A program made the position numbers and the translations under genes. Below the pieces are notes generated by a model, which was not told the origin of the DNA, did not search any database, and saw only the letters and a program-made list of their open reading frames with translations. From contig NZ_JNAR01000004.1 in NCBI RefSeq assembly GCF_000760095.1, positions 1 to 64,000 on the forward strand: 64,000 nt of DNA. The letters are read 5' to 3'. The stretch is from Prochlorococcus marinus str. MIT 9401. GTDB taxonomy: Bacteria > Cyanobacteriota > Cyanobacteriia > PCC-6307 > Cyanobiaceae. Shown piece by piece: positions 4,799-24,194 of this stretch. Positions within the stretch are counted from its first letter, which is position 1; every line of letters starts with the position of its first letter.

Positions 4799-4898
4799 GT
4801 AGAAATTTTTTTGAATCAATTAAGTGCTTTTTGTAATTTATGTTTTGAATCGGTCCAGTAAACTGTAAAATATATCCTAGTAATAAAAAACTTTTTTA

Positions 4899-5135
4899 AT
4901 GAACATATCAAATAATGCAGGAGTCGACTCTACTGATTTGGCAATAAGAGGTGAAAGCTTAATAAGAAAATCAACAAATAGATATTTAACTACCGTGAGA
5001 ATTGCTTTCAGAGCAAAACAAAGACGTTTTGATGATTTTGATGGATTATTAGAGGAATCAACTATTAAACCTGTTCAAAGGTCAATTATTGAATTGAGCG
5101 ATGAGCAAGACCAACCAGATTTACTTCCTGGTTAA
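4899..5135 (+). CDS. rpoZ: RNA polymerase omega subunit
   Basis: 78-residue omega subunit, which helps assemble and stabilise RNA polymerase by clamping the beta-prime subunit. The conserved helix reads [21 protein letters not shown] (residues 27-47) with the cyanobacterial C-terminal tail [13 protein letters not shown]. The following DUF1818 gene starts two bases after the stop, so the two are almost certainly co-transcribed and translationally coupled. Confidence 0.93.
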
Positions 5136-5137
5136 TT

Positions 5138-5509
5138 TTGGTAAAAGACCAAAAACGATGGAGATTACTTAGAGATTTCAGAAAAGGTAAATTTTGCTTT
5201 TTAATTGGAGTTGATAATTGGTCAATAGAGTTACAAAAAAGTGAATTTCATTCACTTTATCTTCTACTAGTAAGAATTAATAAACAACTATTAGATATTA
5301 AGAATGAACTCTTGGATGAGGAGTTGATTACTTTAAATTTAGAACAACTACCTTGGTACATTGAGTTAGAAGGAAAAAAAAATGAATGGAGTTTGAGGTT
5401 TGTTTTTGAAAGTCAAGATCAAACAAGATCTTTCGAAATGTATTGGCCTATACCAATAGCAAAAAATTTATTTTATGAAATAAAAAAAATGTGGGAATCA
5501 ATGGATTAA
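5138..5509 (+). CDS. DUF1818 family cyanobacterial protein
   Basis: 123 residues with a TTG start that is the only reasonable in-frame start, two bases after rpoZ. The protein begins with an RLLRDFRKGKFCFLIGVDNWSIEL segment, has WYIELEGKKNEWSLRFVF in the middle and ends in FYEIKKMWESMD. This fits the cyanobacteria-specific DUF1818 family by length, order of motifs and rpoZ linkage. Soluble, no membrane segment. Function unknown; the rpoZ pairing hints at transcription or plastid-type gene expression but does not prove it. Confidence 0.8.
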   Translation: MVKDQKRWRLLRDFRKGKFCFLIGVDNWSIELQKSEFHSLYLLLVRINKQLLDIKNELLDEELITLNLEQLPWYIELEGKKNEWSLRFVFESQDQTRSFEMYWPIPIAKNLFYEIKKMWESMD

Positions 5510-5561
5510 AAGATAAATAAAATTGGAAATTTTTTAAAATATTTCCCCGTGGGGGAAAAAA

Positions 5562-5625
5562 AATTCCACAACTTTTCCACAACTATTTTTATAAAAATAT
5601 TTAATTACCTAAAGGATGTGGAAAA
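5562..5625. promoter_or_regulatory. Cluster of DnaA-box-like sites in a 313-bp intergenic gap
   Basis: The gap 5510-5822 holds TTTTCCACA at 5573-5581, the exact reverse complement TGTGGAAAA at 5617-5625, and a near match AATTCCACA at 5562-5570. TTTTCCACA is the DnaA-box consensus reported for cyanobacterial origins. A short palindrome, TTTCCCC-GT-GGGGGAAA, lies just upstream (5542-5559), and AT-rich DNA separates and follows the boxes. This could be a DnaA titration or regulatory site, a promoter controlled by DnaA for the DUF2811-like gene, or an accessory origin element; dnaN/dnaA are not in the window. Confidence 0.5.
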
Positions 5626-5822
5626 CTTATGTTTTTATATAATTATTTATATTTCGAGGAGAATTGATTTTATGAAAATCAATTTTAATGAATACCCACT
5701 TTATGACTTGATTCTCATTATTCTTTAGCTTGAGACTGCCTTTTAATAATACTTGTTGACGATTTAGTAATTTTGAAGAAAACTAGATCTTGTAGATTTG
5801 AATTTCAAAAAAATTTTTCAAT

Positions 5823-6074
5823 ATGCAAGAATTAAATTACGACAAAAATCCATTAGTTTTAAGTCAGAAAAAAGAAGTAATTAGTTTCAAATGTGAACTT
5901 CATGAAAATCTACAAAAGGCAATGAAAGAATTTGTTGAAGAACATCCTAATTGGGATCAATACAGGATACTGCAAGCAGCCATCGCAGGATTTTTGATGC
6001 AAAAAGGATTTCAAAATAGGGACTTAACCAGGCTTTATATTGGAAATATGTTTTCAATGAGTTTTGAGGACTAA
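5823..6074 (+). CDS. DUF2811-like small cyanobacterial protein
   Basis: 83 residues. The core ISFKCELHENLQKAMKEFVEEHPNWDQYRILQAAIAGFLMQKG looks like the small cyanobacterial family DUF2811 (residues 20-62): a short strand followed by helices, without cysteine motifs or membrane segments. The RILQAAIAGFLMQ helix resembles ribbon-helix-helix-like packing, but no DNA-binding claim is justified. It is preceded by the DnaA-box gap and converges with the EVE gene. Family assignment is from memory of the motif pattern. Confidence 0.75.
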   Translation: MQELNYDKNPLVLSQKKEVISFKCELHENLQKAMKEFVEEHPNWDQYRILQAAIAGFLMQKGFQNRDLTRLYIGNMFSMSFED

Positions 6075-17890: not shown

Positions 17891-17990
17891 TTGTAGTAGA
17901 TACTACATAATCGTCCGATCTACCATCTGATAGACCGCAGTACGACTCAAGCCATAGGACGGGGACTTGAGCAAGTTCAGGAACTGCACC
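17891..17990 (+). ncRNA. Structured leader, candidate glutamine (Downstream-peptide / glnA-type) riboswitch
   Basis: A ~100-base, GC-richer leader lies between a consensus promoter and a 33-codon gene. Stems seen: TGTAGTA/TACTACA (17892-17907), TCTA/TAGA within 17920-17934, CTCAAG/CTTGAG (17946-17970) and an imperfect GCAAGTTC-AG-GAACTGC next to the start codon. ATCGTCCG...GACCGCAGTACGA resembles the cyanobacterial glutamine-riboswitch core (TCGTTCA...GACGGAAGTAGGA in glnA RNAs). Downstream-peptide RNAs of this class are known upstream of short cyanobacterial genes. The assignment rests on remembered motifs, not a covariance search. Confidence 0.55.
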
Positions 17991-23537: not shown

Positions 23538-24194
23538 TTTTTTCGTAAAACTTTCATTTTTCAAAACTATTTAAATAAACAACCCCCAAAATTATTGACA
23601 TCAAAAGCAATAAATTTATTAAATCTTATTGTTAAATGCTCTTGTAAAAATTTTAATTACTTTGCTTTTTGATTCCTTTTGTAAATTTTATTTTCTCGAT
23701 TTAAAAGAAAAAGGATGGTAAAAATGCAAGTAGGAATGAGAATAAAATCAATCGACATAAATATTAGTTATTCTATTTTCTCTTTAGCAATAAAATGAAT
23801 TTTTGACAGGGTTATATATCTTTTCAAATCCTTTTTTAGTAAAAAATTATTATAGTTTTGTATCTGACTTTAAAAATTAAAAGAGCTTGCAAGTATCCCA
23901 CCGGCAAGCTCATGACAAACGAGTTAGCTTCAGTTTTGATTTTCCTGATGTTAACAAGCTAAGCACTTCCTAAATGCTATAAATACATAATAATAAGTAA
24001 AATTACTTACCGTGAGTATAAATGCTTATTTTGGGGTTTTCTATCAATTCGATTAAAAATTTTTAGCAATCCTTATCTTTTGACAAAATTGTCATGCATT
24101 CAGTTTCAAATATTCGTTGCAGCATATGTTCCCATATTGGGTTTACATAAGTTAATATTTATGTTACTTTAGTTAACAATTATAAAAAAAATTA
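23538..24194. other. Long gap with structured elements before an hli gene
   Basis: 657 bases without a confident gene. GAGCTTGC (23883-23890) pairs with GCAAGCTC (23904-23911) around a GC-rich loop, followed by a second small hairpin near 23965-23982, suggesting a small RNA. TGACAA-AA-TTGTCA (24081-24094) is a palindrome ~100 bp before the hli start and may be an operator or overlap a -35 element (TTTGACA). Confidence 0.4.

Follow-up and report, generated by a model that had tools for sequence, protein, structure and literature searches.

What does a cluster of DnaA boxes do in the gap between a DUF1818 gene and a DUF2811 gene of Prochlorococcus, away from dnaN: does it act on replication, on DnaA, or on the gene that follows it? 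The stretch analysed here, called the window, is 64,000 nucleotides long, and the genome that contains it is denoted G000. The original prediction had placed two exact boxes in opposite orientation and one near match in this 313-bp gap, and all three are present, the near match being AATTCCACA (Table 1). The exact boxes have the sequence TTTTCCACA, a 9-mer already described as the cyanobacterial DnaA box; gel shifts and footprints have been published for domain IV of Cyanothece DnaA (PMC4674748). From comparisons across the genus, the family and the phylum we propose that the cluster very probably serves DUF2811 as a control region to which DnaA binds.

The box cluster and its conservation in the genus

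Table 1. Features of the DUF1818–DUF2811 gap and its flanking genes (positions in the window)
Feature	Position	Strand	Remarks
DUF1818 gene	5138..5509	+	upstream neighbour, outside the unit; PF08848, E 2.3e-26
Gap between DUF1818 and DUF2811	5510-5822		313 bp; holds the boxes
Box 0, weak DnaA-box-like, ATTTCCCCG	5541..5549	+	TTTCCCC core at 5542-5548; precedes box 1 by 21 bp and box 2 by 32 bp
Box 1, degenerate DnaA box, AATTCCACA	5562..5570	+	reads TTTTTCACA in the genus consensus; precedes box 2 by 11 bp
Box 2, exact TTTTCCACA	5573..5581	+	mean majority-base fraction 0.994 in 71 copies
Box 3, exact TTTTCCACA, inverted	5617..5625	-	44 bp from box 2; 0.991 in 71 copies
Conserved TTGAC, tentatively a candidate -35 element for DUF2811 in the window's clade	5756..5760	+	130 bp after box 3; all five columns at least 97% in the 71-sequence alignment
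DUF2811 gene, 83 aa, proposed owner of the boxes	5823..6074	+	PF10929, E 4.8e-24, 84.9 bits against a cut-off of 26.6

Boxes 2 and 3 are the only exact copies of TTTTCCACA in the window. Their number is ordinary, because 54 of 100 shuffles of the window contained at least two copies (mean 1.65 per 64 kb); the argument that about one exact site per 64 kb is expected by chance must be taken with care, and it is the arrangement that is not a matter of chance. A general enrichment of the motif was tried as an explanation and rejected, G000 having 22 copies of TTTTCCACA versus 30 of the reversed motif, and among these 22 sites boxes 2 and 3 form the sole close pair. The GC palindrome that had been noted beside the boxes survives by half: in the alignment of 71 copies its TTTCCCC half, inside box 0, is conserved and its GTGGGGG half is not, so that the palindrome as such seems to be a local coincidence.

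Across the genus, close pairs of this kind turned out not to be frequent when boxes were counted genome-wide. The inverted pair TTTTCCACA-N20..50-TGTGGAAAA is found in 205 of 266 genus genomes, once in each, with no match to a reversed-pattern control; in its exact form it is absent from the other 61, and among good-quality genomes it is found in 76 of 87. When loci were fetched by the position of DUF1818, which covered 70 of the 80 other genus genomes that have this gene, the pair was present in 70 of 70, with a total length of 53 bp in 62 of them, 54 bp in 6 and 52 bp in 2. Fetching by DUF2811 instead gave 80 loci with titles naming Prochlorococcus or uncultured Synechococcaceae, two of which (L148 and L178) are too short upstream; 77 of the 78 loci with sufficient upstream DNA have the pair. 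One DUF2811 locus, L214 from Prochlorococcus AG-459-E08, has no TTTTCCACA within 500 bp before the domain.

The elements of the gap are themselves conserved, as a check on the original prediction confirmed in the 71 aligned copies. While boxes 2 and 3 are nearly invariant, the bases between them have a majority-base fraction of 0.767. The box 0 region (5541-5548) has a mean of 0.958 over the 71 copies, and the region of box 1 (5563-5571) has 0.934 in the genus. A second, fairly conserved block lies between the boxes and DUF2811, at 5700-5800 of the window, and reads ATTCTCATTATTC...CTGAGAC...TTGTTGACGA...GAAAACT (mean majority fraction 0.835 over 5701-5800).

Some further sites were seen elsewhere. 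Several genus genomes share two TTTTCCACA sites separated by about 3.3 kb. In L364 the Rfam-annotated small RNA Yfr17 (4800-5061) contains a TTTTCCACA site at 4905 on the minus strand, followed by box-like stretches, and it is possible that this is a second DnaA-linked locus. Rfam matches in the window itself are a Glutamine-II riboswitch (17909-17971, plus strand) and the small RNA Yfr20 (23884-23979, minus strand).

Boxes and promoter elements upstream of DUF2811 in other cyanobacteria

The exact inverted pair was found in 106 of 300 genomes of the family, including 23 of the 24 genus genomes among the 300; one genome matched the reversed control. The bases between the boxes differ among these pairs, and their spacing is mostly 44-45 bp among the matches listed. 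When 30 family loci were fetched by means of the pair, 26 had DUF1818, DUF2811 or both next to it. Four of the loci (L111 and L130-L132) have only DUF2811 near the pair, with no DUF1818 match nearby, and linkage to DUF1818 was therefore rejected as the cause of the association. At L123, L128 and L129 neither gene was detected close to the pair; in L133 the sequence stops some 0.2 kb beyond it. Positions 1501-1546 of L123 form a 46-bp near-perfect palindrome with the box motif at both ends, with no DUF2811 found nearby.

The weaker boxes have counterparts in the family as well. TTTCCCC or TTTCCAC stands upstream of box 1 in many family loci, and a site ending in CACA is found at the box 1 spacing in 22 of 25. 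These 25 loci are those outside L112, which meets a contig end, and outside the four named above in which no DUF2811 was found or the sequence ends (L123, L128, L129 and L133).

Prochlorococcus carries a second DUF2811 gene at another locus (G000:C16:322208), and this paralog has boxes of its own, TTTTCCACA followed 21 bp on by TTTTCCACG in direct orientation; they are present in nine of the nine genus genomes read. Among the 52 DUF2811 genes that the family yielded we counted 40, from 23 genomes, leaving aside the first-paralog genes of nine genus genomes, both genes of G384 and the third of G274. An exact box lies upstream of 32 of the 40, a direct pair at 20-23 bp upstream of 22 and an inverted pair at 42-46 bp upstream of 12, and three genes have none of these.

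Of 244 genomes 104 matched DUF2811, 24 from this family and 79 from other families of the class; the remaining match was weak and came from outside the class. The upstream survey outside the family covered 78 of the 79; G755 was excluded, as were G647 (the weak match outside the class) and the genomes of the family itself. In the 75 surveyed genomes not known to lack dnaA (56 tested for the gene, 19 not), an exact TTTTCCACA lies upstream of DUF2811 in 69, or in 71 when TTATCCACA is counted, and 70 have a direct pair at 20-23 bp if single changes are tolerated. In the remainder of the same 3-kb loci, away from the upstream regions, 71,222 positions held 3 exact sites. The distances between direct copies cluster at 11, 21/22, 33 and 43/44 bp, near whole turns of the helix, and in five other-family loci there is an inverted box 44 or 45 bp away, like the window. 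In G626 and G760 all three main boxes are TTATCCACA, the E. coli box, and the 21-bp and inverted-44 layout is kept. The four genomes with neither TTTTCCACA nor TTATCCACA all belong to genus g64 (G555, G617, G621 and G634) and have only sites of the TTTTCCCCA type or other degenerate ones; dnaA is present in both of those tested. G755 has exact boxes at -308 and -287.

The association is also visible from the side of the boxes. A genome-wide search for direct box pairs in 40 genomes gave 86 matches versus 5 for the reversed control. By manual count 35 of the 86 precede a DUF2811 gene; they cover 26 of the 30 genomes with DUF2811 and without a known lack of dnaA. The remaining 51 are at dnaA, at dnaN, beside guaA and in other places. 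In three other cyanobacterial families three tandem TTTTCCACA copies at 20-21 bp stand just downstream of a gene named guaA by eye from its translation (L312:1528-1577, L313:1492-1541 and L316:1532-1581).

In many relatives the boxes also keep a fixed distance to a promoter element. Of the 25 family loci, 20 have a TTGAC 20-24 bp past the inverted box 3, against a background of 9.4% of 60-bp windows of the same loci, and two have none within 60 bp of box 3. In L130-L132 the boxes are 57-58 bp apart instead of 44 and TTGAC follows box 3 by 11-12 bp; the distance from box 2 to TTGAC thus stays nearly constant, since box 3 has moved about one turn further along and TTGAC is correspondingly nearer. 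The distance from the last box to TTGAC was also compared in a hand-chosen set of 22 other-family loci and 17 direct-pair genes of the family. In 17 of the 22 other-family loci, for which no background was run, TTGAC lies 173-175 bp after the last box; 13 of the 17 come from family f7 and the rest from four other families. The nearest TTGAC-like sequence in the remaining loci is at 143 bp in three, 152 bp in one and 178 bp in one. In the window's clade no promoter was recognised at the distance seen in the relatives: the 71-sequence alignment has no TTGAC at the expected position about 23 bp after box 3, and a promoter scan of the plus strand of the gap (5510-5822) gave no sigma-70-like site.

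Co-occurrence of DUF2811 and its boxes with dnaA

Loss of dnaA has occurred repeatedly in cyanobacteria (PMC7198777). We searched for the gene in 70 genomes of the class, comprising the 11 listed without DUF2811 and 59 of the 79 from other families that have it. A further 120 genomes without DUF2811 belong, to judge by the order of the list, to other classes, and outside the class dnaA may occur without DUF2811. Within the 70, a dnaA match above the cut-off was found in 56, each of which also matches DUF2811 (only partially in G646). The other 14 fall, by their labels, into six groups (g73, part of g72, f13, f22, part of g98 and part of g74). They include all 11 genomes listed without DUF2811; of the three others, G683 has a copy with two stops, and G713 and G595 keep DUF2811 intact. 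Fisher's test of this co-loss gives p = 1.7e-10, with the broken copy counted as present and kinship among the genomes ignored.

The two dnaA-less genomes with an intact DUF2811 gene have lost or degraded its boxes. G595 has none, compared with three exact boxes in G660 of the same genus, and G713 has one exact box and degraded copies, compared with two exact boxes and a near one in its congener G679. Such loss and decay are expected if DnaA binds the boxes, and a dependence of the boxes on dnaA fits these two genome comparisons, the only two of their kind. At the broken DUF2811 locus of G683 one exact box remains nearby.

In two genomes of genus g73, G592 and G753, both 99%-complete and with no dnaA above the cut-off, the dnaN family TIGR00663 likewise found no match. 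It would be surprising for the beta clamp to be absent, and the gene may be interrupted or may have been missed.

Deletions of dnaA have been published for three cyanobacterial species, Synechocystis PCC 6803, Nostoc PCC 7120 and Synechococcus PCC 7002; growth under optimal conditions was unimpaired, and in Synechocystis DnaA was below detection (PMC7198777). Control of DUF2811 by DnaA would therefore be dispensable in those species. In Prochlorococcus MED4, dnaA transcripts peak in S phase (PMC2663038); no statement on DUF2811 was found in the accessible portion of that source. DUF2811 was not mentioned in any paper of the literature searched, and the listings for DnaA boxes with Prochlorococcus or with promoters, and for datA/DARS with cyanobacteria, contained nothing on this element.

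Explanations of the cluster and known DnaA-box systems

DnaA boxes in an AT-rich gap could belong to a replication origin, and the original prediction had offered an accessory one while placing the cluster outside the dnaN neighbourhood. The placement is borne out: dnaN is on another contig, and in four single-contig relatives the element precedes it by 16.7, 17.5, 17.5 and 17.3% of the chromosome. The origin itself found no support. The origins of 12 Prochlorococcus strains, set by GC skew, were published as lying between threonine synthase and the gene for the beta subunit of DNA polymerase III (PMC2836286), and the same gene pair stands at dnaN in G000, threonine synthase being named by eye. 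Local skew turns there as well: in a local profile over 80 kb of contig C17 the cumulative minimum is at 16-20 kb and dnaN at 23.8 kb, and the local profile of the window has no cumulative minimum at 5.5 kb, its lowest value being at 14-16 kb. In other genomes, moreover, the distance between DUF2811 and dnaN varies widely. Published origins, local skew and the position of dnaN thus led us to reject an accessory origin; the box site is probably not an origin, and we regard an accessory or a former one as very improbable. A cluster that acts on DnaA and not on a gene deserves somewhat more weight, although we consider it unlikely. In E. coli, datA and DARS are DnaA-box clusters away from oriC that titrate DnaA or change its nucleotide state. 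A titration or reactivation site of this kind, standing beside DUF2811 by history, would suit boxes that hardly vary and that, in the four single-contig genomes, occupy a similar place on the chromosome, some 17% away from dnaN. It would also suit their fit to the consensus: in five genus genomes most of the boxes before dnaN match it less well, the majority being degenerate and a single one, in G015, exact. Such a site, however, need neither follow DUF2811 to paralogs at different loci and through many families nor stand at a constant distance from a promoter element, as the boxes do in many relatives.

Two further explanations set DnaA itself aside. TTTTCCACA might be the operator of another regulator, possibly of DUF2811 acting on its own promoter, and the presence of boxes upstream of both paralogs would agree with this, as would the conserved start and two helices of the protein, which by eye recall ribbon-helix-helix proteins. 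Searches by family, PDB and fold nevertheless gave no support for a DNA-binding fold. The Pfam matches shown for DUF2811 include no ribbon-helix-helix family, and a PDB sequence search found no relative (best E 0.91). A first structure model (pLDDT 64.6) had one PDB match at E 7.4; a second, from AlphaFold (pLDDT 77.6), consists of helices only and has weak PDB matches (best Foldseek E 3.6, best Z 4.5), with no ribbon-helix-helix entry recognised in its fold-search lists. The motif, for its part, is the known DnaA box, its shifts stay within the known range of such boxes (TTATCCACA), and the boxes are gone or degraded in the two dnaA-less genomes that keep DUF2811, so that we judge another regulator distinctly improbable. 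The perfect complementarity of boxes 2 and 3 would allow them to pair in an RNA hairpin or small RNA, yet most loci of other families have direct repeats in place of the inverted pair, and the Rfam search of the window gave no match at the box site. No compensating changes are visible either, because both arms are nearly invariant. We give an RNA element practically no weight.

A DnaA-controlled DUF2811 promoter is the simplest account of these observations, and such a promoter would be old, being common to most cyanobacteria. Control of the downstream gene, the third role that had been suggested for the cluster, is well supported: the boxes follow DUF2811 through its paralogs and through families, their distance to a promoter element is fixed in many relatives, and they are lost or decaying in the two genomes that lack dnaA and keep the gene intact. 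According to this account DnaA would bind the boxes, with box 2 and the inverted box 3 as the strong ones, and the boxes would stand upstream of the promoter in steps of about one helical turn. Transcription of DUF2811 would then be coupled to the level or the state of DnaA and hence to replication; the sequence cannot tell activation from repression. The protein may act within the DnaA circuit, either feeding back on initiation or reporting the status of replication, and a role in that circuit is the most likely one because DUF2811 tends to be lost with dnaA.

More tentatively, and with rather more doubt than confidence, we suggest that DUF2811 could be a dedicated, cyanobacteria-specific partner of DnaA. 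DnaA would control its promoter and the protein would feed back on DnaA activity or on initiation, in a phylum-wide loop that is discarded when dnaA is lost. If so, the loop between DnaA and DUF2811 would be what DnaA is still kept for where replication runs without it. The role of DnaA in such species has been left open, with transcription control raised as a possibility (PMC7198777). The region upstream of DUF2811 offers one specific, deeply conserved candidate target of DnaA, and dnaA deletion mutants of three species have been published. DUF2811, a protein whose presence tracks dnaA, would accordingly point to a specific job in the cyanobacterial cell cycle.

DnaA boxes of the cyanobacterial consensus (PMC4674748) lie upstream of DUF2811, as is looked for at a DnaA-regulated promoter. 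The work of DnaA as a transcription factor has been reviewed, with cyanobacteria unmentioned in the accessible part of the review (PMC8203912). The cyanobacterial oriC beside dnaN has the same 9-mer as the box site (PMC4674748; PMC2836286), whereas the box site has neither dnaN nor a local skew minimum. The E. coli nrdAB and dnaA promoters, at which DnaA acts as activator or repressor (PMC8203912), likewise have several DnaA boxes in the promoter region, but they serve genes of known function and have another layout. We know of no comparable co-loss with dnaA there. Like datA and DARS, the cluster described here lies away from oriC; unlike them, it is linked to a single gene family and that family's promoter. 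A parallel by description is with Sda, a small protein. The sda promoter of Bacillus subtilis is bound directly by DnaA (PMC8203912). Both cases join a small protein to a promoter region bound by DnaA, presumptively so for DUF2811, and would link replication to another process; the DUF2811 arrangement differs in that it recurs across a phylum and in that the gene tends to vanish together with dnaA.
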